Shown one piece after another: positions 1,072 to 38,655 of a stretch of DNA of 45,067 bases. The first letter of the stretch is position 1, and each line of letters starts with the position of its first letter. The DNA is from Balnearium lithotrophicum (GTDB taxonomy: Bacteria; Aquificota; Aquificia; Desulfurobacteriales; Desulfurobacteriaceae). A program made the position numbers and the translations under genes. The notes below the pieces were generated by a model. The model had not been told where the DNA came from, ran no database searches, and saw only the letters and a list, made by a program, of their open reading frames with translations. The stretch covers positions 1 to 45,067 of the forward strand of contig NZ_FXTM01000018.1 in the NCBI RefSeq assembly GCF_900182585.1, given 5' to 3'.

Positions 1072-4000
1072 CTAAATCTTTTCTATCTTTACTCTTGTAC
1101 TACTGAAATCGGGAATTCCTCCTATAGGTTCAACTAATGGGAGATTGAAGAGCTTTTCATCAAGTCTTGTCAGTTTGTTCATTGTGACTCCAACGCCTCT
1201 CCTCTTATCAACCCTTGTCCAGTTTCCTCTTGCAACCTTTTCTCCTCCTAAGAGAACTTTAGGAGCTCCCTCTATGTAAACGGGTGATGCTCCGTGCTGC
1301 CAGTGGCCAAAGTGATGGGAGTAGGCAACCGTTCCCGGACGAACGAGGTTTGTAACTTTAACTTTTGTAACTACCCCCTCTTTGTTACTCTTTGAGTAAA
1401 CCCTTACTCTATCTCCGTCCCTTATTCCCAATTTTTTAGCATCTTCAGGATTTACCTTAAGCTCAAAATCGGGGTCATAGATGAGAGCCTGGTTGTAGAC
1501 AATAGTCCTTGACTGTGTGTGTAGTGCCGACTTGTAGGTAATTACGTTAAAAGGATACTCTTTATCTACTTCTTCAATTGGCTTTCCAAAGTAGTCAGTT
1601 GATGGATAGTATTGGAGAGTTCCCCATAGTTTTTCCCCGGTCAGTGAATTTCTGCTCGTTCCAAGTTTTTCGTTCCAGATACATACCTTTGGAATTCCAA
1701 ATTTGAAGTTACCGTTTTTATCAAAGGTTTTCTCGTAAGGAACGAAAACACCTCCTCTTACAAGGACTGTACATACTCTTTCCCACTCTTCCTTTGAGAG
1801 AGTGTTTTTAAACTTTGAAACTGGATAGTTTTCATCAACAAACTTGACCTCCTCCCTTGGAGCTCTTTTAACGTTTGCATTGTATGCAAGGTTTGAAATA
1901 CCCCTCAGATAATAGTCTTCAGGAGTTACAAGTGGATAGAGTTTTCCGTCCTTTCCAGGAATTGCTCTCTCTCCGTATCCAGGAAGTTTTAAGTACCTTG
2001 ATACGTCGATAATAAAGGTCTCCATACAGAATGGTCTTCCATCCTTTGTTCTTCCTGTTAGCGGTTCAACGACAGGTGTTCTTACAGCTGTAAACTGGCA
2101 CCCCGGAGCGTGAGGTGTCAGAAATCCATAGTGGCCTTCGAGGTAAGTTACATCGGGGACTATATAGTCTGCATAGATGTTTGTCTCGTTTATTGTCGTG
2201 TCAATAGAGATGTAGAGGGGAACCTTTCCATGGTCTTTGAGTGTTTCTATGAATCTCCTTCCTCCAGGCATGCTGTAAATGAGGTCTGAGAAGTAGGTAA
2301 TAACAACCTTAGCTGGATATGGATACTTCTGGTCTATTCCAGAGATTGCGGAGACGGATAGTCCTCCCTTTGTGAATGAGAACCATGGAAGCTTTGAGGG
2401 ATAGCCTTTCTTCTTAAATTCTGTTGATTTTTCGTACTTTGCCTTCTCCCTTGATATTTTTACTCCCTTGGGCTTTTTCATTCCCGGGAACTTCTTAAGG
2501 TCGTACAGACCTCTTTGCCAGCTTGCAGCTCCCCTGCCGTTGCAGAGGTAACCACCCTTTTTGTTTATGTTTCCAACGAGAGCGTTCATCATTGCAAGGG
2601 CGTAACTAGCGTACGTTCCACCAACATAGTTGCCACCTCCGTGGTAGGCGTATGCAACTGCGTACGGAGAGTGTTCCCAGAACTCCTTTGCAATTTCTTC
2701 TATCGTTTTCTCATCAATACCCGATTCCCTGGCATAGAAGGATAAAGAGTGTTTCATAACACTGTCCTTCATGAGTTTAAACGCCGTCGCGACCTTTATT
2801 CCGCTAATTTCTCCTTCCCACTCAAGGAGAGCTCTATCTACAGAGGTTGAAGGGACAGGCCTCTCTGTTTCAGGGTTAATTACCACTTCCTCTTCCCGTC
2901 TTCCTTTCAGCCCTTTTACATCCCTTACTCTGAGAATTCTTCCAGCTTCCGGGTGTTTATCGTCGACAATTACCAGGTGAGTAGCATTTGTGTAAACGTT
3001 CCTCCCTGCCCTTTTTGCAGACTTCATTGATGGTATAGAGAGGAAATCCCTGTCGAACCACCCTCTTTCAAGCATTACCCTAATAAATCCCATTGCAAGA
3101 GCTCCGTCCTTAGTTGGCCTTACAGGAAGCCACCTGTGAGCATGGGCGACTGCCTTTGGAGCTCTCGGGTCTATTAGAACAAGCTTTAACTCTCCAGAGG
3201 CTATTCTCCTTGCTATTATTGCTCCCGATGTATTTACTCCCGGCTGTTGGGCAGAGTAGATGTTTGAACCAAAGACCAACATGTACTTGCTGTTCCAGTA
3301 GTCTGCCTTAAACTCTGCCTTCTTTCCATCTGAAAGTGCATAGTTACCCATCCTAAAACCGATACCGCAGATATCGGTATGTGCCAGGTAGTTCTTACTT
3401 CCTATTGCATTGAGTACCCACCTCTTTATAAAGTGGCTTCTGCCCCCCTGAGAGCGACCTGTAAACCAGACCAACTGGTTGCGTTTAGGTCCAAGTTCCG
3501 GAGCTTCCGGGTCAACAGGGTCGTCTGAGAGAACGTCCTTTATTCCCGGATAGTACCTGTTATCCCCTATCTCCTTAAAAAGATATCCCCCTTCAGAAAC
3601 CTCCCTTATGAGCTGTTCCCAGCTTATGGGCTTAAACTTCCCCTCTCCCCTTTTTCCTACTCTCTTTAAAGGTTGTGTTATTCTGTAGGGATTGTAGAGG
3701 TAATCGTTGTCCATTTGGGGTTTTGCACAAGTTGTTGCAACGGCCTTAAAGCTCCTTTCAAGAGGTGTATCGTAGGGTATTTCCTTTCCTGAACGGTTGT
3801 AAGGGTGGTATGGATTTCCATCTACTTGAATCAACTTCCCATCCTTCACCGTAACCCTAAGTCCGCAGCGGGCATTACAGGCCAGACATACCGTATTAAC
3901 GATTCTGTCTCCCTTTGGCTTCTTAGTTTCTGGGTAGGAATAGGGGTTTCCATTTTCTGTCTCTGGAACTATCACTGAGTGGTGGTTTTTAAGGAGGGTT

Positions 4001-4587
4001 CTTCTCACTTCAGGCCTTGAGTTTAAAAGCTCGGCCAACGGCCCTTCTGGTTTGTACAGGTTCCCGAAAATAAGAGCTCCACTTGGACAGACAGAGACAC
4101 ACCTTGGAATATCTCCTTCCTCAATAGCTCTCTCAAAACACATATCGCACTTTCTTGCCTTTCCTCTTTTATCAATTACTATTGCATCAAAGGGGCATGC
4201 AGGAACACACTTTTCGCATCCTGTACACTTTTTCTCATCTATAACAACGACTCCTCCTTCCCTTACAGAAATTGCATCAAATGGACATGCAGAAACGCAC
4301 AGATGGTCAAAGCACTGTTTGCATATCTTCTCCTGGTCAAAGATTAATTTTGCCTTTGGATACTCTCCTATTTCCCTCTCCTTTATCCAAAAGAGGTTAA
4401 TTTCGGGAGTCCCATTCAGTCCGTTTTCAAGCTGGCATGCTGCCATACATGCCTTACAGCTCATACACCTTCCCTGGTCGAAAATAAGAACAGGCTTAAA
4501 TACTTCAGTTTGAGCCTTTCCGATTTTTACTCTGGCACCTAAAAGTACAGTAAGTCCAGCTACTTTAAGAAACCCCCTTCTATCCAT
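1072..4587 (-). CDS. Tat-exported molybdopterin oxidoreductase with fused 4Fe-4S subunit
   Basis: The 1171-residue protein belongs to the DMSO-reductase superfamily. The start is ATG 4587 (MDRRGFLK), which has GGAGG 5 bp upstream; a TTG four codons earlier overlaps that site and is unlikely. RRGFLK plus a hydrophobic stretch is a Tat signal, so the enzyme should be periplasmic. Residues about 35-200 form a multi-cluster ferredoxin domain of the NrfC/PsrB/TtrB type (CMSCKACMAAC, CKQCFDHLCVSACP, CTGCEKCVPACP, CDMCF...CVSVCP). From about 225 the catalytic subunit begins with CLACNARC and resembles TtrA/SrdA-type enzymes of tetrathionate, polysulfide or selenate metabolism; Cys in HTDICGIG may bind Mo. 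Beta and alpha subunits are normally separate genes, so the fusion is unusual. No NrfD/PsrC membrane subunit is nearby. The substrate cannot be read from the sequence. Confidence 0.85.
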   Translation of the reverse strand: MDRRGFLKVAGLTVLLGARVKIGKAQTEVFKPVLIFDQGRCMSCKACMAACQLENGLNGTPEINLFWIKEREIGEYPKAKLIFDQEKICKQCFDHLCVSACPFDAISVREGGVVVIDEKKCTGCEKCVPACPFDAIVIDKRGKARKCDMCFERAIEEGDIPRCVSVCPSGALIFGNLYKPEGPLAELLNSRPEVRRTLLKNHHSVIVPETENGNPYSYPETKKPKGDRIVNTVCLACNARCGLRVTVKDGKLIQVDGNPYHPYNRSGKEIPYDTPLERSFKAVATTCAKPQMDNDYLYNPYRITQPLKRVGKRGEGKFKPISWEQLIREVSEGGYLFKEIGDNRYYPGIKDVLSDDPVDPEAPELGPKRNQLVWFTGRSQGGRSHFIKRWVLNAIGSKNYLAHTDICGIGFRMGNYALSDGKKAEFKADYWNSKYMLVFGSNIYSAQQPGVNTSGAIIARRIASGELKLVLIDPRAPKAVAHAHRWLPVRPTKDGALAMGFIRVMLERGWFDRDFLSIPSMKSAKRAGRNVYTNATHLVIVDDKHPEAGRILRVRDVKGLKGRREEEVVINPETERPVPSTSVDRALLEWEGEISGIKVATAFKLMKDSVMKHSLSFYARESGIDEKTIEEIAKEFWEHSPYAVAYAYHGGGNYVGGTYASYALAMMNALVGNINKKGGYLCNGRGAASWQRGLYDLKKFPGMKKPKGVKISREKAKYEKSTEFKKKGYPSKLPWFSFTKGGLSVSAISGIDQKYPYPAKVVITYFSDLIYSMPGGRRFIETLKDHGKVPLYISIDTTINETNIYADYIVPDVTYLEGHYGFLTPHAPGCQFTAVRTPVVEPLTGRTKDGRPFCMETFIIDVSRYLKLPGYGERAIPGKDGKLYPLVTPEDYYLRGISNLAYNANVKRAPREEVKFVDENYPVSKFKNTLSKEEWERVCTVLVRGGVFVPYEKTFDKNGNFKFGIPKVCIWNEKLGTSRNSLTGEKLWGTLQYYPSTDYFGKPIEEVDKEYPFNVITYKSALHTQSRTIVYNQALIYDPDFELKVNPEDAKKLGIRDGDRVRVYSKSNKEGVVTKVKVTNLVRPGTVAYSHHFGHWQHGASPVYIEGAPKVLLGGEKVARGNWTRVDKRRGVGVTMNKLTRLDEKLFNLPLVEPIGGIPDFSSTRVKIEKI

Positions 4588-4639
4588 ACTTTCCTCCAAG
4601 GGTTTAATTCACACGTAATTTTAGAGAAATTTCTTCAAT

Positions 4640-8310: not shown

Positions 8311-8339
8311 TTGACTTACGTTCTACGGCTTTACTATAT
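8311..8339 (+). promoter_or_regulatory. Promoter of the candidate selenoprotein gene
   Basis: TTGACT (8311-8316) and CTATAT (8334-8339) are separated by 17 bp; shifting by one gives TATATT with 18 bp. The predicted start, about 8345-8347, leaves a leader of roughly 30 nt with a GGAG site at 8367-8370 before GTG 8378. Confidence 0.5.
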
Positions 8340-8377
8340 TCCATCCAGAAAACTTCAGAAATTTTCGGAGCTAGTTC

Positions 8378-8614
8378 GTGGCAGGACTTGTTTATTACTA
8401 TTTTGGATGTACAGATGAAGACATTAAAAACGATGTTCTCAAACATAGAGGAATATCCACAATTGCCAGTAAGATTGTAGGGATGAAGAAGGAAGGACTT
8501 TGCCAGTGTGAGGTAAAGCATCCTGAAGGGAGGTGATGCTTGTCTGACGTTCACCGAGTTGTGAACGAAGCTATTAAAGAGATGGGAAAATCAAAAAATT
8601 TTGAAAATAAGTAA
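8378..8614 (+). CDS. Candidate selenoprotein: small [2Fe-2S]/BFD-like protein with in-frame TGA
   Basis: Reading from GTG 8378 (GGAG 7 bp upstream) to TAA 8612 gives 78 residues if TGA 8534-8536 is read through. The frame on both sides of TGA belongs to one recognisable small family: [25 protein letters not shown], then TGA, then [16 protein letters not shown]. Relatives as I recall them (BFD/CopZ-type 2Fe-2S domains) have a Cys pair, GxCC, at the TGA position, so residue 53 would be selenocysteine beside Cys54. Just after the TGA lies a bSECIS-like hairpin. The usual early Cys-x-Cys pair reads Tyr-Tyr-Tyr here, so a decaying gene with a nonsense mutation is the main alternative. It has its own promoter and ends 20 bp before trmFO. 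Standard gene callers would miss it. Confidence 0.6.
8538..8571 (+). promoter_or_regulatory. bSECIS-like stem-loop downstream of the in-frame TGA
   Basis: CGTTCAC (8548-8554) pairs perfectly with GTGAACG (8561-8567) around the loop CGAGTT. The stem extends through GCTT (8538-8541) with AAGC (8568-8571), leaving a 6-nt bulge on the 5' side only. The apical loop lies 19-24 nt after the TGA and contains two G, which fits the known spacing and loop features of bacterial SECIS elements bound by SelB. Confidence 0.55.
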
Positions 8615-8634: not shown

Positions 8635-9942
8635 ATGGAAAAGGTTATTAACGTCATAGGTGGTGGTTTAGCCGGTGTTGAGGCTGCTTACAGGGCTGCA
8701 GAAGAGGGAAAGAAAGTTGTACTCTTTGAAATGAGACCACGGAAATCCACTCCAGCTCACAAAACGGACAAGTTAGCAGAGCTTGTCTGTTCAAACACTC
8801 TTGGTGGGATTGATATAACTACACCAAGAGGCCTTTTAAAGGCAGAAATGGAAAAGATAGGTTCATTAATTATAGAAGCGGCCAAGAAAACGAGTGTCCC
8901 TGCCGGCGGAGCTCTTGCAGTTGATAGGGAGAAGTTTTCAGAGTATATAACAGAAAAAATAGAGAAAAATCCAAATATAGAAGTTATTAGAGAGGAAATT
9001 ACCGAAATTCCAAAAGAGGGAGTAACAGTTGTTGCAACTGGTCCCTTAACCTCTGATAAGTTTTCAGAATTTTTGAGAAATTACTTAGGAGAGGAGGAGT
9101 TCCACTTCTACGATGCCATTTCTCCAATAGTTTATGCAGATACTATCGACTACTCTAAGTGTTTCTGGGGGTCAAGGTACGGAAAGGGAGGGGACGATTA
9201 CCTTAACTGTCCTATGACTAAAGAGGAGTACGAGAGGTTTTACAGGGCTCTGATGGAGGCAGAAAAGGTTCCTCTGAAGGACTTTGAGAAGGCCTGTTAC
9301 TTCGAAGGGTGTATGCCAATAGAGGAGATGGCAGAGAGGGGAGAAAAAACATTACTCTTTGGTCCTTTAAAGCCTGTTGGTTTAATAGACCCAAGAACAG
9401 GAAAACAGCCTTATGCAGTTGTTCAGCTGAGAAAGGAAAACAGGGAAGGAACTCTTTTAAATTTGGTAGGTTTTCAGACAAAGCTAAAATATCCTGAACA
9501 GAAAAGGGTCTTTAGGCTCATTCCGGGCTTAGAGAATGCAGAATTTGCAAGATACGGGAGTATCCATAGAAATACGTTTATAAATTCTCCAAAACTCCTT
9601 ATGAGAACTCTACAGCTCAAAAAGAACCCTAACGTCCTCTTTGCAGGCCAAATAACGGGAGTTGAGGGCTATCCTGAATCTGCTGCTACAGGTATAGTTG
9701 CAGGAATCAATGCATCGAGGTTGGTTGAGGGGAAAGATGCAGTCTATCCTCCAGAAACAACAATGATTGGGGCTCTCCTTAAGTACATAACATCTGCTGA
9801 CCCTAAACACTTCCAGCCCATGAATGCCAATTTCGGCCTTCTTCCTCCTCCTGATAGGAAAATAAGAGGTAAACTTAACAGGAGAAAGTATTTAGCTAAA
9901 AGGGCTTTAGAGGATTTAGAGAAATGGTTAGGAAGTTTATAG
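8635..9942 (+). CDS. trmFO: Methylenetetrahydrofolate-tRNA-(uracil-5-)-methyltransferase TrmFO
   Basis: The 435-residue flavoprotein starts with a dinucleotide-binding motif ([15 protein letters not shown]), followed by [16 protein letters not shown] and [11 protein letters not shown], all typical of TrmFO (formerly Gid). Later motifs, [14 protein letters not shown] and [12 protein letters not shown], also fit. It makes 5-methyluridine at position 54 of tRNA, using methylenetetrahydrofolate as carbon donor and FADH2 as reductant. Length is normal for the family. The start codon ATG 8635 has only a weak GGA upstream. The LysM gene starts inside its last 19 bp, so the two form an operon. Confidence 0.95.
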
Positions 9943-31061: not shown

Positions 31062-31478
31062 TTATAGAGATTCAATAAGTTTCTTCACACGTTTGATAAC
31101 TTCGTTTCTAACCTCTCTAAAGGCTTTTAATTTTTCTTCTATTGTTCCTTCCACCCTTACCGGGTCGAAAAGTCTCCAATGTTGGACGTTAGCTCTAGGT
31201 ACAATAGGACAGTTCTCAGCTGCATCTCCACAAAGGGTTACAGTTAGGTCAAGTTTATTTAAAGGAATTTCTTCAAGGGATTTGGATTTTTGTTTTGATA
31301 TATCAATTCCAATCTCCCTCATAACCTCTACTGCAAGGGGATGTACGTATCCGGCAGGACTTGAGCCTGCCGAGTAAACTTCAACGTTCTTTCCTAATTT
31401 CTTTGCGTAGTATTTAGCAAAACCCTCAGCCATCTGGCTTCTTGCAGAGTTTCCGGTACATATAAAACCTATTTTCAC
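31062..31478 (-). CDS. arsC: Arsenate reductase, LMW-phosphatase type
   Basis: The 138-residue product has the P-loop CTGNSARS (Cys7 to Arg13) and the second reactive pair in LCGDAAENCP, typical of thioredoxin-coupled ArsC. It reduces arsenate to arsenite; a plain low-molecular-weight phosphatase is the alternative, but the distal Cys pair argues for ArsC. Start GTG 31478 overlaps the RND pump stop (GTGA), making it the last gene of the efflux operon. Confidence 0.9.
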   Translation of the reverse strand: MKIGFICTGNSARSQMAEGFAKYYAKKLGKNVEVYSAGSSPAGYVHPLAVEVMREIGIDISKQKSKSLEEIPLNKLDLTVTLCGDAAENCPIVPRANVQHWRLFDPVRVEGTIEEKLKAFREVRNEVIKRVKKLIESL

Positions 31479-34400
31479 TTCTCTTCTGCCTCCTGAGGTT
31501 TTCTAATCAGGTAATCCCTTATATCCTCGATGAGGGATACTAATACGGGAACGAAGAAGAGGGTCATAAACGTTCCAAAGATGAGTCCCCCGATTGCTAC
31601 CACTGCGAGGGGAGCTAACCTCTCAAGTCCTAACGCCCATCCCAGGGCAATGGGAATCATACCAACGGCCGTTCCAAATGCTGTCATTAAAACGGGACGA
31701 GTCCTGATTTTTATAGAGTTTATAACTGCATCCTTTGTTGACTGTCCCTGCTCCTTTGCCCACTTGAAGAAGTCTATGAGAAGGATAGAGTTTTTAACGA
31801 TGATTCCTGCAAGGAGAATCATTCCCATAAAGGAAGGCATACACTGGGGTTTGTGGGCAAGGAGCATTGAGAAGGCTGCTCCAATCATAGCAAGTGGAAT
31901 TGCTGCAACTATAGATATTGGATAGGTAAACGAGGAAAATGCAGGTACTAGTGAGAAGTAGAGAATGATTATTCCTATTAGAAGAGAGTGCATCAATCTT
32001 GTAAAGCTCTCCTTCATCTGCTTGATTTCACCCTCGTGAGAAATTCCGTATCCTACAGGAAGTTCTAAAAGCTTGTTTTCTAACTTGTTTACCTGCATTT
32101 GAAGGAATGTTGTTGGAGCTGTTGAACGGTAACCGTAAACATCTACAGTATTGAGTAAGTCCTGATGAGTAATTCTGCTTTGAGTATTCTGCTCTTTTAA
32201 TTTCACAAAGTAAGAAAGGGGAACAAAACCCTTTTTTGTAGGAATAGGAACAGACTTCAACTTATCTGCAAAATCCCTTTCATCGTTAGGCAGGATTAGC
32301 CTTATGATGATTCCATTTTCCATAGGAACAACAAATGAGGAAGCAGGAATTCCCCTTACGAATCCTCCTACGTAGGAAGCTATTTGGAGTGGAGTAAGTC
32401 CGTAGTTTGCTGCTCTGTTTGAATCAATCTGAATTATTACCTCTTTTTTATCGAGGTACCAGTTTCTTGAAATATCTGTTATTCCACGAACCTTTTTAAG
32501 AAGACCTGATAATCTCTCTGCGAGTTTGTCAAGAACTTTAGGGTCTCTTCCGTAAATCATTTCATCAATTGTTGAGGCAATTGATGATAGAGGTGTTGCT
32601 CCAAAGTCCATTATTGTTACGTATCTGAGGTCTGGAATTTGATGGAACTTTTGACGGAGCTCCTCCTCAATCTGCCAGATTGTCTTTTTCCTGTGGAACC
32701 TATCTACAAACTGAATTTTCATTTCTATCTGCTGAGGAGTTTTTCCACTTCCAAAGGATAGGACTCCAGGTTCAGAACCTATAGTTGATGAAACCCTTAC
32801 AACACCAGGCATTGAATAGAGAACCTTTTCCATTTTTGATAAAACTTTCTCAGTTTTCTCAAGGGATGTATTTGAATCCGTTTCTGCTCTAACTATGACA
32901 ATTCCAGTATCCATAGGTGGCATTAAATCCCTTCCCAAAACGGGAATTACGTTTTTCATCGTTATCACAAAAAGGAAAAATCCAACAACTACAACTATCA
33001 GTTTGAGCCAGAAGTGGGGAAGTAAAGGCTCTGTTATTCCTGCATAGAAATTCCTCAATCTATAAACTACTGCCTTAACAAAGTAATCGTAGATTTTTCT
33101 CTCTAGCCAGTTCTTATCGGGTGTTTTCTTCAAGATATAAGGAGCAACAATTGGAATTACCGTTACTGCAACTACGTATGAAACGACAAGGGCAATAATC
33201 AAGGTTAGCGAAAGGGGTCTTAGTATGTGTTGAACGTATCCACCTATAAAGACTATGGGAATCAACATTGCAACCGTTGTGTACGTTCCACTTAAAACGG
33301 CAAGCATTATCTCCTTTGTTCCATCTATCGTTGCCTGCCAGATGTCCTTTTTAAGTTCAAAGTAGTGCCTTTCGATGTTTTCAAGTACAACAACTGCATC
33401 ATCTGTAAGCATACCTAAGGCGAGGATAACGGCCGTCAGTGTTACGATGTTGAAGTTGAATCCAAAGAGCCACATAAGTCCTATTGTTATTAAGTAGGTT
33501 ACAGGAATTGAGAAGAACGAAACTATTAGCATTCTTACGTTTGCTAAGAAAATGAATATGACGAGGAGTGTAAATACAACGGCATCCCTTAAGCTTTCCA
33601 ACATGTTTTTGTTAGAGAGCTCTATCAGCCATTCTTGAGTATCTGCAACTTCAAAGTTAAGTTGTGGATACTCCTTTTTGAGTTTCGGTAGAAATGCCAT
33701 AACAGACTTTATTGCTGGAAGCTCGTAACCTTTTGGAGAGCGGAGAATAGATATTCCAATGGCCCTATGTCCGTTTCCGTGGTAGGCTGAAAGTCTGTCC
33801 TTGTACCCCCACTCTACCTTTGCAACGTCCTTAAGCTGTACGTTTGGTTTAATGTAAATATCCTTTAATTCCTCAATTCTCTTGGCCTCATCCTCTAACT
33901 TTAACATTAAAAGGCCGTCCTTGCTTATGAGGAGTCCAACTGGAGCGTTTCTGTTGTTCTGTCTAACGGCGTCAGCAAGCTGTTTTAGAGTTATGTGGTA
34001 TTTGGCCATTTTTATGTAGTTGGGATAAATTCGAATTTCCCTCTGGTATCCTCCAAATACCTCAACATCGGAAACGTGAGGGAGGTTAAGGAGTTCATCC
34101 TTTATCTCGTTTTCAGCCAATTCCCTAACTTGTGCAAGGGAGAGGTGAGAACCCTTTTTGGGATAGACTGCAAGGATTAAAACTGGCTGCGTTGCATCTG
34201 TAATTTTGTAAACCTGTGGAGGGAGGATATCCTTAGGGAGAAATGGGAGAACCTTTGAGAGTTCGTTTGAAACGTCGGTTGCTGCAGAGTCTATTCCCTT
34301 CTTGTACTCAAACTCGACAGTTACAACCGAAACCTCATCCTTTGAAACTGAGCGAACAGTTCTTACAAGGTCTAAAGTCTTTAACCTCTCCTCAATAGGC

Positions 34401-34597
34401 CTTGTTATATGGGATGCTACATCCTCAGCAGAAGCTCCAGGCTCAACTGTTACAACGGCTATTTGAGGTCTATTTGCATCCGGAAAGAACTTTCTCGGTA
34501 TCTCTATGTAACCTATAATGCCTATTGCACAGAAGAATAGGATGAATGCCAAAACGCCGTGAGGTTTTTTTACGTACCAGTCAACCAATTTACCCAT
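31475..34597 (-). CDS. RND-family efflux pump permease
   Basis: The product is 1040 residues from ATG 34597, which has GGAGG 6 bp upstream; a TTG five codons earlier is unlikely. It has the AcrB/HAE-type layout: helix 1, a large periplasmic loop (PGASAEDVASHITRPIEERL), helices 2-6 with GMLTDDAVVVLENIERH (proton-relay Asp pair), a second loop and helices 7-12 with GIIVKNSILLIDFF. It exports compounds from the inner membrane or periplasm with proton drive. The substrate cannot be told; drugs, bile-like compounds or organo-arsenicals are options. Its start overlaps the adaptor stop. Confidence 0.93.
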   Translation of the reverse strand: MGKLVDWYVKKPHGVLAFILFFCAIGIIGYIEIPRKFFPDANRPQIAVVTVEPGASAEDVASHITRPIEERLKTLDLVRTVRSVSKDEVSVVTVEFEYKKGIDSAATDVSNELSKVLPFLPKDILPPQVYKITDATQPVLILAVYPKKGSHLSLAQVRELAENEIKDELLNLPHVSDVEVFGGYQREIRIYPNYIKMAKYHITLKQLADAVRQNNRNAPVGLLISKDGLLMLKLEDEAKRIEELKDIYIKPNVQLKDVAKVEWGYKDRLSAYHGNGHRAIGISILRSPKGYELPAIKSVMAFLPKLKKEYPQLNFEVADTQEWLIELSNKNMLESLRDAVVFTLLVIFIFLANVRMLIVSFFSIPVTYLITIGLMWLFGFNFNIVTLTAVILALGMLTDDAVVVLENIERHYFELKKDIWQATIDGTKEIMLAVLSGTYTTVAMLIPIVFIGGYVQHILRPLSLTLIIALVVSYVVAVTVIPIVAPYILKKTPDKNWLERKIYDYFVKAVVYRLRNFYAGITEPLLPHFWLKLIVVVVGFFLFVITMKNVIPVLGRDLMPPMDTGIVIVRAETDSNTSLEKTEKVLSKMEKVLYSMPGVVRVSSTIGSEPGVLSFGSGKTPQQIEMKIQFVDRFHRKKTIWQIEEELRQKFHQIPDLRYVTIMDFGATPLSSIASTIDEMIYGRDPKVLDKLAERLSGLLKKVRGITDISRNWYLDKKEVIIQIDSNRAANYGLTPLQIASYVGGFVRGIPASSFVVPMENGIIIRLILPNDERDFADKLKSVPIPTKKGFVPLSYFVKLKEQNTQSRITHQDLLNTVDVYGYRSTAPTTFLQMQVNKLENKLLELPVGYGISHEGEIKQMKESFTRLMHSLLIGIIILYFSLVPAFSSFTYPISIVAAIPLAMIGAAFSMLLAHKPQCMPSFMGMILLAGIIVKNSILLIDFFKWAKEQGQSTKDAVINSIKIRTRPVLMTAFGTAVGMIPIALGWALGLERLAPLAVVAIGGLIFGTFMTLFFVPVLVSLIEDIRDYLIRKPQEAEEK

Positions 34598-35774
34598 TGA
34601 AGGCCTCCACAAGGTTTACATTCTTAACCCTTAAAACCTCTAACAGCTTGCTTTCCCTTCCAACTACTACCTTTTCACCTTCCAATAGGTTACCTGAAAC
34701 GACTACCCTGTTGTTTACCCTCTTTATTACCTTAACTGGAACGGCCTTTACTGAATGTCCCTGAACGGTTAAAACGTAACTTCCATCCTTTAGGTGGAGA
34801 ATTGCTGAATAGGGAAGAACAAAACCTTCGTAGCTTTTCCCCTCTAAAACAGTTTCTACTAATTCACCCGGTTTAATTCCTTTGAGTTTGTTTAACCTTA
34901 TTTCAACTGTGTAGAGGCTGTTTTTCTGGTTTGCTGCAGGGTAGATTTTCTCAACTCTTCCAATTTCAAGGCCTTCTACCTTTACAGGAGAACCCAACTC
35001 AGTTTCTCTTGCATCCCTTGGTGGAACGTTTACAAGAACTCTGAATCCGTCACTGTCGTAAAAGACCTTCATTATTGGTTTTCCAGGGAGGGCTTCATCC
35101 CCTGGATAGAGGAGAACGTTTGCAACTGTCCCACTTTTGAGAGCTCTGATTTCTGTGTACTTCAGTTTTGAAGCTACAGATTTTTCCTGCTTTTCAATTG
35201 AAATTATGGCGTGCTTTAACTCTCTCATTTGTGATTTAATGGTTTCAACCCTTGCTTTTGCACTTTCGTAGAGATTTTGATACTTTTCAACAGCTTCCTT
35301 TGGAACAGCTCCCCTTCTAAAAAGAAAGAGCTCCCTTTCGTACTCGTTCCTTGCATTTTTCTCCGCAACTTCAGCCGCCTTTAGCTGTGACTCCAAACCC
35401 TTTAAAAGGGACTCCTTTGCCTTCTTTTGATTTTCAAGGGCAAGGATTGTGTTCTCAATTTCGGAACTATCAATCCTTGCTAAGAGCTCTCCCTTTTTGA
35501 AGTGTTCACCTTCCCTCTTGTATACTTTCAAAACTGTCCCGGAGACCTTTGTTGAAATGGATGCGTAGGTGTACGGTAAAACCTGACCTAAGTATTTAAA
35601 CCTTTCGTTAATATTTCCCCTTTTTACAACTGCATATTCAACTGGTAAAGGGTAGCTTTTAGGTGGTGTGTACGAGAGGAGCTCCACCCTCCTCTTCTTT
35701 ATGAGAACTTTTCCAACAACAACACCTAAAGCTATTAGAATAACCAGGACTAGTATTGCCTTAGAGCTCTTCAT
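34590..35774 (-). CDS. RND pump periplasmic adaptor (membrane fusion protein)
   Basis: The product is 394 residues from ATG 35774 (GGAGG 6 bp upstream). It has one N-terminal membrane anchor, a lipoyl half-motif (ISTKVSGTVLKVYKREG, ELLARID), a coiled-coil hairpin at about 100-190, a second lipoyl half (TEIRALKSGTVANVLLYPGD) and a beta-barrel region. It links the RND permease to the outer membrane channel. The gene overlaps the upstream outer membrane factor gene by 14 bp and the pump gene by 8 bp. Confidence 0.92.
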   Translation of the reverse strand: MKSSKAILVLVILIALGVVVGKVLIKKRRVELLSYTPPKSYPLPVEYAVVKRGNINERFKYLGQVLPYTYASISTKVSGTVLKVYKREGEHFKKGELLARIDSSEIENTILALENQKKAKESLLKGLESQLKAAEVAEKNARNEYERELFLFRRGAVPKEAVEKYQNLYESAKARVETIKSQMRELKHAIISIEKQEKSVASKLKYTEIRALKSGTVANVLLYPGDEALPGKPIMKVFYDSDGFRVLVNVPPRDARETELGSPVKVEGLEIGRVEKIYPAANQKNSLYTVEIRLNKLKGIKPGELVETVLEGKSYEGFVLPYSAILHLKDGSYVLTVQGHSVKAVPVKVIKRVNNRVVVSGNLLEGEKVVVGRESKLLEVLRVKNVNLVEAFNG

Positions 35775-37050
35775 CTTCAACCTCCAGTATTGTTTCTATC
35801 CTTCTCTTTTCAATTTCCCAGTCGTAGTAAGCTCCAGAGAGCTCCGCCTCCGTCATGTAAAGGTGGGACTCTGCAAGGAGGAGGTGGTCCATGTCTCCCT
35901 TACCGCTCTTGTACTTCAACCTCTCTATTCTCTCAACTTCCTTTGCATAGTCCAACTTTTTCCTGTAAGCCTCAATGTCAGACTGAATTGACTTTATCCT
36001 CCCAATTGCCTTTGAGAGCTCCCTCTTTATCTCAAGTTCTGTAGATTTGAGTTCCTTCTCCTTTGAAAGCTTTTCCAACTCCTTTGAAAGAACTTCTCTC
36101 CTTTTTCTTCCCCATTCAAAAATCGGATATCTAACCTCAAAGGATAATGAACCTACTCCAATATTTTCACCAGAGTCAAATCCATAATTCCTTGTATAAG
36201 TTCCAGAGATTAAGAAGTTTAAGCCGTACTTCGAAGCTGTTAACTCCTTGGTCTTTTCCGATATCTTTACATTCCTCTCCTTTGACTTAATTAGACTGTT
36301 TCTCTTTAAAGCCTCACTGTAGAGGTCTGTCAGTTCGAAGTTTTTCGGTGAGTATTCAAATCTGTAGGGTTCAATTCTGCTGATTTTCTTCCCAATGAAT
36401 GTTTCAAGAACTGTCTTTATTGTTTTCTGGTTTTCCTCTACCTCTGAAATTCTTGATTCAACGTCTTTTAGAGAGTACTCAACCTTTAACAGGTCAACCT
36501 TTGCAAACTTTCCAAGTTTTACACCGTAGGAGACGTCAGAATAGAGCTTTTTAAGACTATCCCTGTACTTTTTTAGAGCTCCCTTTATTTTTTCAAGCTT
36601 TAAGTACGTTAAATAGAAGGAGTCAACGTTGAACCTAATCTGCCATGCCGTTGCCTTCTTTAAATTCTTAAAAAGTTCTGACTTCAGTTTTGATATCTCC
36701 TCTCTCCTTGAAATTGTTCCTCCCAAGTAGATAGGTGCAGTGTAGCTGATTCCGTAGATGAACTTCTGACTGTCAAATGGAGGGGGATTTTTAGGATTCA
36801 TCATGTGGTACATAGGAGTCAGGATGAAGTTTTTGTTGTAGGTTGTGTAGGTTGATAGGAGATTGACCGTTCCAAGCCTTTCCCTCCTTACAGCCTCTGC
36901 TTCCTTAAGGGAGCTCTCCCTTAAAAGTTCCAACTTCTTTATTTCTGGGTAGTTTTTAACTGAAAGTTCCTCTGCCTCTTTTAGGGTTATAGAATTTCCG
37001 GTTGAGGAGAGGAGGAGAAAAAGTGTTAATATCGAAAGAGTTTTTTTCAA
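35761..37050 (-). CDS. TolC-family outer membrane efflux protein
   Basis: The product is 429 residues from TTG 37050 (GGGGGAG upstream), beginning with signal peptide LKKTLSILTLFLLLSSTGNS. A longer reading to 37128 runs through the promoter and is rejected. It is helical with two repeated halves (LKEAEELSVKNYPEIKKLE, SEALKRNSLIKSKERNVKI) as in TolC-type outer membrane factors. It is the first gene of a four-gene operon with the adaptor, pump and arsC. Confidence 0.9.
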   Translation of the reverse strand: MKKTLSILTLFLLLSSTGNSITLKEAEELSVKNYPEIKKLELLRESSLKEAEAVRRERLGTVNLLSTYTTYNKNFILTPMYHMMNPKNPPPFDSQKFIYGISYTAPIYLGGTISRREEISKLKSELFKNLKKATAWQIRFNVDSFYLTYLKLEKIKGALKKYRDSLKKLYSDVSYGVKLGKFAKVDLLKVEYSLKDVESRISEVEENQKTIKTVLETFIGKKISRIEPYRFEYSPKNFELTDLYSEALKRNSLIKSKERNVKISEKTKELTASKYGLNFLISGTYTRNYGFDSGENIGVGSLSFEVRYPIFEWGRKRREVLSKELEKLSKEKELKSTELEIKRELSKAIGRIKSIQSDIEAYRKKLDYAKEVERIERLKYKSGKGDMDHLLLAESHLYMTEAELSGAYYDWEIEKRRIETILEVEDEEL

Positions 37051-37072
37051 TTTCTCCCCCAAAATTAGGTAA

Positions 37073-37101
37073 TTGACGAAATTATCAATCTTGAATAATA
37101 T
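37073..37101 (+). promoter_or_regulatory. Promoter of the TauE/rhodanese/ArsR/carbonic anhydrase operon
   Basis: TTGACG (37073-37078) and TAATAT (37096-37101) are separated by 17 bp. The -10 overlaps the -10 of the divergent efflux operon within the palindrome TAATATATTA (37096-37105). Confidence 0.65.
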
Positions 37102-37128
37102 ATTAGCACATCCGAAAGATAACTTCAA
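37100..37128 (-). promoter_or_regulatory. Promoter of the efflux/arsC operon
   Basis: On the minus strand TTGAAG (37123-37128) and TAATAT (37100-37105) are separated by 17 bp, leaving a leader of about 40 nt before TTG 37050. Confidence 0.65.
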
Positions 37129-37139
37129 GGAGAGGAAGA

Positions 37140-37874
37140 ATGGTAAGCGGCCCGGTCATTGGAGCAGTTTCATTTGTAGCTTCTTTCATATTTGCCCTCG
37201 GTGGCGTTGGAGCAGCTGTAGTAATTATTCCCATTTTAGTATTCTTAGGGGTTCCATTCTCAGTTGCCAGACCTGCAGGACTCTTTGCAAACTTCTGCTC
37301 AATGACTTCTGCAACTATCCATAACCTAAAGGAAGGCTTGTTAGACTTTCGACTCGGAATACCTATAGTTGTTTCCTCAGTAATTGCTTCTCCGATTGGA
37401 GCCTATACCTCCCACCTACTTCCCGAAAGAATCGTAGGGATTGCCTTTACACTCTTTCTCTTCTTTGCAGGAGCAATGGTTTACATACCTAAAAAGGAGG
37501 TATTTGAGGAGAAAAGTAGCCTGGTTTATCCAACCTTCGTTGGAGCTCTTGCCGGCTTCCTTTCGGGACTACTTGGAGTTGGAGGAGGAGGAGTAATCTC
37601 TCCAATGCTCATAATTGCCGGATACCATCCAAAGAAGGTAGCTTCAGTTACACCTTTTACTGTCCTATTTTCATCCTTTACAGGTTTTCTTGCCTACTGG
37701 AAATTAGGGAGTGTCGATTGGAAAATAGTTCTTTGGGCTGCCATTCCAGCTGTTATTGCTGGATACCTTGGAGCTTTTATCACCCACAGGTATTTAAAGC
37801 CCTCTCACGTAAAGAAACTATTAGGGATTATATTTTTCCTTTTAGGAATTAAGTTCCTGTTAAAATTCATCTAA
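37140..37874 (+). CDS. TauE/SafE-family membrane transporter
   Basis: The 244-residue protein has about eight membrane helices and the family's two Gly-rich repeats (ALGGVGAAVVIIPILVFLGV, LSGLLGVGGGGVISPMLII). TauE/SafE proteins are thought to export sulfite, sulfoacetate or related sulfur anions. Together with the rhodanese gene 10 bp downstream, a sulfur role is likely. ATG 37140 has AAGGAG upstream. Confidence 0.88.
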   Translation: MVSGPVIGAVSFVASFIFALGGVGAAVVIIPILVFLGVPFSVARPAGLFANFCSMTSATIHNLKEGLLDFRLGIPIVVSSVIASPIGAYTSHLLPERIVGIAFTLFLFFAGAMVYIPKKEVFEEKSSLVYPTFVGALAGFLSGLLGVGGGGVISPMLIIAGYHPKKVASVTPFTVLFSSFTGFLAYWKLGSVDWKIVLWAAIPAVIAGYLGAFITHRYLKPSHVKKLLGIIFFLLGIKFLLKFI

Positions 37875-37884
37875 GGAGGTGTTT

Positions 37885-38265
37885 ATGGAATTGAGGGAAT
37901 TTGTATCCCAGTTTGACCTTAAAGGAGTTTTGGAGAAGGAACCAAAAATCTCCCTTGATGGATTCCTTGAGAAGTGGCAGAACGGAGAGGCAATTCTTTT
38001 GGATGTAAGAACAAATGAGGAACAGGCTTTAACTCCACTAACGGCATTTGGAATTCACATTCCTTTAAACGAGCTTCCCGAAAGGCTCTCAGAAGTTCCA
38101 AAGGACAAGTTGGTGTGTACACTCTGTCCTGGAAAAATAAGGGCTACAATAGCCCTCTGCTATTTAGTTTCAGAGGGTTTTGAAAACGTTAAAGTTCTCA
38201 ACTCATCTCCTTCAGAAATTGTTGATAAAATGAAACCACCAGTAGTATCAAAATTGAGGAAGTAA
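37885..38265 (+). CDS. Rhodanese-domain sulfurtransferase
   Basis: The product is 126 residues from ATG 37885 (AAGGAGG 5 bp upstream; an in-frame GTG at 37879 lies against the site). A single rhodanese domain has AILLDVRTNEEQ and the active loop CTLCPGKIRAT with a catalytic Cys. It moves sulfane sulfur between carriers. The N-terminal 30 residues are extra. It sits between the TauE-type transporter and the ArsR regulator. Confidence 0.85.
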   Translation: MELREFVSQFDLKGVLEKEPKISLDGFLEKWQNGEAILLDVRTNEEQALTPLTAFGIHIPLNELPERLSEVPKDKLVCTLCPGKIRATIALCYLVSEGFENVKVLNSSPSEIVDKMKPPVVSKLRK

Positions 38266-38268
38266 ACT

Positions 38269-38655
38269 TTGGAATTTGAAAGGTTTGTTGAAGCTTTAAA
38301 GGTTCTTTCAGACGAAACGAGAATAAGAATTCTCAAACTTTTGGAGAAAAGCCCGGCCTACCTGTGTCAGATAACGGCAGTGCTGGGCTTTTCCCCTTCA
38401 ACAGTTTCTGCTCACATGGTAAAACTTAAACACTTCGGTTTTGTTAGTGAAAAAAGGGAAGGAACTAAGGTTCTCTTCTCCCTTTCTGAGCCGGAGGACG
38501 AGAATTTAAGAAAAGTAATGGCCTCGATTTTGGAAAAGGCCGAGAGTTTTCCCTCTGTTCTTGAGGATAGGCAGAAGTTTAAGGAATCGACCCTTGACAG
38601 GGTCTGCCCTCCCGGAGGAATTGTTGGAAAGAAGAAAAGCCGAAGAGGTAGTTAA
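38269..38655 (+). CDS. ArsR-family winged-helix regulator
   Basis: The 128-residue product has the ArsR fold: VLSDETRIRILKLLEKSP, then LCQITAVLGFSPSTVSAHMVKLKH as recognition helices, and the wing VSEKREGTKVLFSL. One Cys lies in the helix where ArsR proteins carry their metal-binding CxC (here YLCQIT) and another in the tail (DRVCPPGG), so metalloid or thiol sensing is possible. TTG 38269 has GAGGAAG upstream. It could control this operon and the divergent efflux/arsC operon. Confidence 0.85.
   Translation: MEFERFVEALKVLSDETRIRILKLLEKSPAYLCQITAVLGFSPSTVSAHMVKLKHFGFVSEKREGTKVLFSLSEPEDENLRKVMASILEKAESFPSVLEDRQKFKESTLDRVCPPGGIVGKKKSRRGS

Follow-up and report, generated by a model that had tools for sequence, protein, structure and literature searches.

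A predicted CopZ-type selenoprotein gene with an altered cysteine motif in Balnearium lithotrophicum

Two reviews include two selenoprotein forms, 1 and 2, of the '(2Fe-2S)-binding protein (copper chaperone CopZ family)' (PMC9312934, PMC13188914). Form 1 corresponds to cd10141, with WP_245779778.1 as its exemplar, and is credited there to Zhang & Gladyshev 2008 (PMC9312934, PMC13188914). The newer review gives GxUC as the motif of form 1 and names neither Thermovibrio nor Desulfurobacterium (PMC13188914). For the bSECIS, a small apical loop containing G has been described (PMC1088965).

Here we analyzed a stretch of 45,067 nucleotides from Balnearium lithotrophicum (contig NZ_FXTM01000018.1), referred to as the window. 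It very probably contains a genuine selenoprotein gene (copZ-U) in which UGA is decoded as selenocysteine. Its GRUC motif, together with the description in the reviews, places the gene with form 1. Since a CopZ form with GxUC is already listed there, the gene does not represent a novel type of selenoprotein. New are a Desulfurobacteriaceae member of form 1 and an oddity of this member, namely Tyr-x-Tyr together with an A at position 24 of the hairpin loop.

Reading frame and homologues

The features of the locus are collected in Table 1. The GTG is the earliest start codon past an in-frame TAG (8372-8374), and the TGA is the sole in-frame stop before the frame ends with TAA 25 codons later. 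An earlier note on this DNA had read the TGA and the 25 codons to TAA in the same way. That note had also considered promoter, ribosome-binding site and start codon to be in place. The latter two were confirmed, whereas the promoter-like match is at chance level, with 2 such matches observed in the region and 1.4 expected.

Table 1. Coordinates of the copZ-U locus in the window
Feature	Position	Strand	Basis
Predicted gene for a stand-alone selenoprotein, CopZ N-terminal/BFD-like, 78 aa, U53	8378..8614	+	GTG to TAA; single TGA; TGA homologues in 4 other genomes; NF047645 E 5e-10
In-frame TGA, predicted to be read as selenocysteine (GR-U-C motif)	8534..8536	+	TGA at this codon in G001, G247, G384, G157; TGC/TGT in Cys homologues; full Sec machinery
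Tyr-Tyr-Tyr (TAT TAC TAT); Cys-Tyr/His-Cys in relatives	8393..8401	+	Alignment, 19 homologues
Second CxC (C42-Q-C44); C44 invariant in alignment	8501..8509	+	Alignment
Ribosome-binding site GGAG, 7 nt upstream of GTG	8367..8370	+	Read from sequence
Promoter-like TTGACT-18-TATATT	8311..8340	+	Not above chance expectation
Putative bSECIS hairpin: 7-bp stem 8548-8554/8561-8567, loop CGAGTT 8555-8560	8548..8567	+	Shared register, MFE fold
Outer 4-bp stem GCTT (8538-8541)/AAGC (8568-8571)	8538..8571	+	MFE fold
trmFO, 20 nt downstream, possibly co-transcribed	8635..9942	+	Named from sequence

The window protein matched the NCBIfam profile NF047645 (CopZ_Nterm_CC) with 39.6 bits over profile positions 88-137 of 138. 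Only the C-terminal third is present, and the full-length cut-off of 100 bits was not reached. The match to the CopZ N-terminal family is real, although partial. The score for NF045877 (CopZ_Nterm_CU) was 21.8 bits, below the cut-off of 190. GRUC coincides with the GxUC motif in the CopZ N-terminal-like domain, and the 78-residue product appears to correspond to the Fe-S (BFD-like) half of the N-terminal domain of the metallochaperone CopZ, occurring on its own. Searches with the window protein returned no match in Pfam and nothing relevant among the PDB sequences, and the plasmid collection yielded only a distant CopZ from Deinococcus. Four homologues (P0002 and P0005-P0007) gave weak, sub-threshold Pfam matches to Fer2_BFD (PF04324). 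An AlphaFold model of the window protein was helical (pLDDT 81), with metals not resolved and a shallow alignment as input. Foldseek with this model retrieved Bfd only at an insignificant E of 5.6-8.8.

Homologues were searched in whole genomes with stops read through, and family-wide in 391 genomes. A Thermovibrio MAG of the same genus (WFNZ01, G001) encodes a copy, LFKPEDKICYCFNHTYQDIKEDFLKHGRSTILSSILKAKKEGTCKCEIYHPEKR-U-CLGDLQRALEQVIKETKG, with 50% identity to the window protein. The 391 genomes contained three further TGA copies from two families outside the phylum, two of them in one genus (G247 and G384) and the third in G157. All five copies are stand-alone proteins of 72-83 aa with the TGA at the identical GxUC position, and the frames are otherwise intact. 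Cys homologues without the stop were found as well, with TGC or TGT at this codon; most of those aligned have an additional region at the N-terminus (zf_CopZ in P0003). Thus, the TGA interrupts the frame at the Cys position of GxCC, as had been supposed from the sequence. The concern that it might be a misread TGC or TGT was dispelled by its independent recurrence in five genomes. TGA copies occurred in 2 of 136 Aquificota genomes, and four congeners had no copZ-U homologue. In a tree of the homologues, the Sec forms could not be traced to one origin.

We then compared the window gene with that of G001 codon by codon. In the 48 codons before the TGA, codon positions 1, 2, and 3 showed 20, 12, and 29 differences, respectively; in 18 codons after it, the counts were 7, 6, and 11. 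On either side of the TGA, differences are most frequent at third positions and pS is greater than pN; the 25 downstream codons therefore look constrained at the protein level.

A lytic transglycosylase gene is arranged divergently to copZ-U. TrmFO proteins of the genus share 89-90% identity, but neither copZ-U nor this transglycosylase gene was found upstream of trmFO in G001-G006. Synteny therefore failed as support for vertical descent. The different loci and the protein identity of 50% suggest separate acquisition or rapid change, and we do not call the window and G001 copies orthologues. Probably, copZ-U has been passed between lineages. The G001 copy (L012 4640-5780) has as neighbors a small zinc-ribbon gene of FmdB type and a toxin-antitoxin pair resembling HigB/HigA, both named by eye, which fits a mobile setting.

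Two other regions of the window were likewise named by eye. Positions 31062-38655 hold a metal/arsenic-type cluster with an ArsC-like phosphatase, an RND efflux pump with adaptor and outer-membrane protein, a TauE/SafE-like exporter, a rhodanese-like protein, and an ArsR-type regulator. At 1072-4599, a frame of 1175 residues has a Tat-type signal and a 4Fe-4S ferredoxin domain at its N-terminus, fused to a molybdopterin oxidoreductase, a combination that is normally split into two subunits.

Hairpin and selenocysteine machinery

Just 3' of the UGA, the window gene carries a hairpin with a small, G-holding apical loop. Its stem of 7 bp (CGTTCAC/GTGAACG) is perfect, and the 6-nt loop is located 19-24 nt after the TGA. 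The minimum free energy (MFE) fold of the region, at -10.3 kcal/mol (z -2.0), includes the outer stem. The two stems, the position of the loop, and its G had been pointed out in the earlier note. Taken alone, the window hairpin is only moderately unusual: a stem of at least 7 bp in this distance range was present in 1.1% of synonymous recodings and after 0.75% of all TGAs in the window. At this site, Rfam gave nothing but chance matches.

The hairpin evidence is strong because the homologues share the register. When nucleotides are counted from the T of TGA as 1, the stem is formed in each of the five TGA copies by 16/17-21 and 28-32/33, which enclose a loop at 22-27. The hairpins read GUUCAC-CGAGUU-GUGAAC in the window, CUCCAG-CGUGCU-CUGGAG in G001, UCCAC-CGUGUA-GUGGA in G247 and G384, and GUCCGC-CAGGUG-GUGGGC in G157. 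In the ungapped alignment of the five, 93% of the cells pair, compared to at most 50% when the partners are slid. Three of the six hairpin pairs are altered on both sides and thus show compensatory changes, here from five sequences only. The shared register was reached by a single synonymous recoding in 1.5% of the trials for the window and in 3.1% for G001. Given these low rates, a register common to several genomes is not expected by chance, and the hairpin has withstood the conservation check that the earlier note had proposed. The three Aquificota Cys genes did not form it. In G001, another fold was slightly better, so that the shared hairpin is not the MFE structure. The window stem is the longest perfect Watson-Crick stem among the five copies; nucleotide 24, in the loop, is A, in contrast to the U of the fdh element and of three among the other four TGA copies.

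The host genome (1.73 Mb, 49 contigs, 99.9% complete) encodes selA, selB, selC, and selD, every one above its curated cut-off, and so answers a further check of the earlier note. Scores were 625 bits for SelA, 428 bits for SelB, 368 bits for SelD, and 78.9 bits for the tRNA-Sec, which ARAGORN also calls as tRNA-SeC(tca). selD has its own in-frame TGA. With the full machinery including a TGA-bearing selD, we conclude that the pathway is present and, by inference, in use. All five TGA genomes (the window's own, G001, G247, G384, and G157) contain SelB; in the three tested Aquificota genomes with the Cys form (G024, G103, and G106), no SelB reached the set threshold. Among the known selenoprotein genes checked, selD and copZ-U were the only TGA genes seen in the host genome; its formate dehydrogenase-like matches had no in-frame TGA.

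Within the Desulfurobacteriaceae, SelD is UGA-coded in 21 of the 22 genomes searched, with the motif SG-U-GAK (host locus L020, G000:C4:49883-50809). A selD hairpin after the TGA, AGCCC-GGUC-GGGCU with the loop GGUC, is nearly invariant across the loci of the family; the elements have almost the same sequence throughout and are one base out of register. Two residues past Sec, SelD of this family has Ala, where E. coli SelD has Cys. Of the Fdh-alpha matches (L046 and L047 versus L051), only those in G007 and G014 contained an in-frame TGA.

Altered cysteine motif and competing explanations

The replacement of the upstream Cys-x-Cys by Tyr-Tyr-Tyr, already observed in the earlier note, is confined to the window copy; the other 18 of the 19 aligned homologues all have CxC. 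Relative to TGT codons, it corresponds to two G-to-A changes. Sixteen columns are invariant in the other four Sec proteins, and the window protein differs at exactly two, the CxC cysteines. Its branch in the tree measures 0.29, versus 0.76 for G001. Judged from this pattern, the substitution looks like a focused change, not general decay. In the CopZ structure 2hu9, the matching residues are C75-x-C77, C109, and C118-C119. We take C75, C77, C109, and C119 to be the [2Fe-2S] ligands; Sec would then presumably sit at the non-ligand C118, adjacent to the cluster. Since Tyr-x-Tyr removes two presumed ligands, a classical [2Fe-2S] site is doubtful in the window copy, whose metal site must have changed or disappeared. 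Thus, from the proposal of a Sec-Cys pair in an Fe-S or metal-carrier protein, the GRUC pair in a CopZ-like frame stands, whereas the label of a [2Fe-2S] protein has become questionable with the loss of CxC.

These changes could mean that a genuine CopZ-type selenoprotein gene has recently started to decay, with the cluster-binding CxC lost and the SECIS loop weakened by U24 to A. The patchy distribution, including the absence from four congeners, would fit as well. However, the frame contains no further stop, frameshift, or loss, the deviation from the invariant columns is targeted rather than random, the branch is short, and the stem exceeds those of the other four TGA copies in perfect pairing. 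We therefore regard incipient decay as unlikely. Even less probable, to a degree that makes it hardly credible, is an ordinary stop at the TGA, which would leave a 52-residue peptide or nothing and make the downstream codons and the hairpin products of chance. About 1% of the TGAs in the window do precede a hairpin of at least 7 bp at that distance, but five SelB-bearing genomes have in common the TGA codon, conserved residues at the C-terminus (UCLxDV...), and the hairpin register, and the Cys homologues read on through the same position.

The selenoprotein reading of the earlier note is thus supported by the machinery, the TGA homologues, and the conserved hairpin register. Points against it are Tyr-x-Tyr, A24 in the loop, the missing Pfam match, the insignificant structural match to Bfd, the better competing fold in G001, the presence in only 2 of 136 Aquificota genomes, and covariation drawn from five sequences only. 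According to the selenoprotein model, ribosomes would arrive at the UGA in codon 53, SelB with GTP and Sec-tRNA(Sec) would dock on the downstream hairpin and insert selenocysteine, and translation would proceed to the UAA. In the predicted BFD-like product, GR-Sec-Cys would lie beside C-x-C. The selenolate/thiol pair would most likely bind and hand on a soft metal ion or a [2Fe-2S]-type center, or carry out redox chemistry there.

As a sub-case of this model rather than an alternative to it, the protein may be functional with a site that is no longer [2Fe-2S], in which C11, C42, C44, U53, and C54 provide another metal or redox site. Only the two N-terminal cysteines changed; C42, C44, U53, and C54 persist, and C11 lies nearby, although the shallow-alignment model does not resolve metals; we rate this sub-case at slightly short of an even chance. 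More tentatively, tyrosines might have taken the place of the two N-terminal cluster cysteines in this lineage, with Sec, the remaining cysteines, and the SECIS retained, which would give a selenolate site with a metal or redox role different from that of its [2Fe-2S] parent.

Comparison with known CopZ and BFD proteins

Standard gene calling would truncate or miss this gene and its relatives, and the annotation is corrected here. The analysis adds a small predicted selenoprotein to the hydrothermal-vent Desulfurobacteriaceae. With Tyr-x-Tyr, this member is a natural variant in which the cluster-binding cysteines of the CopZ/BFD site and the role of the Sec-Cys pair can be addressed.

Among the described systems, Bfd (Fer2_BFD, PF04324) is linked to the family through the weak matches of the four homologues, but not through the window protein itself. 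The N-terminal domain of Archaeoglobus fulgidus CopZ (PDB 2hu9) has the CYC ... C ... NPSGRCC spacing of the homologues. It differs by an N-terminal zinc-binding half, which is missing from the window protein, by Cys in place of Sec, and by C75/C77 in place of YxY. NF045877, the Csac_0668 family 2Fe-2S cluster-binding (seleno)protein or form 2, belongs to the same domain superfamily and is a related selenoprotein form. There, however, Sec follows Cys in the pair (CU, versus UC in the window), and the profile spans 161 positions. With the CopZ form 1 selenoprotein, the window copy shares the GxUC motif of a CopZ-like BFD domain, in which Sec takes the place of the initial GxCC cysteine, but it has lost the N-terminal CxC.
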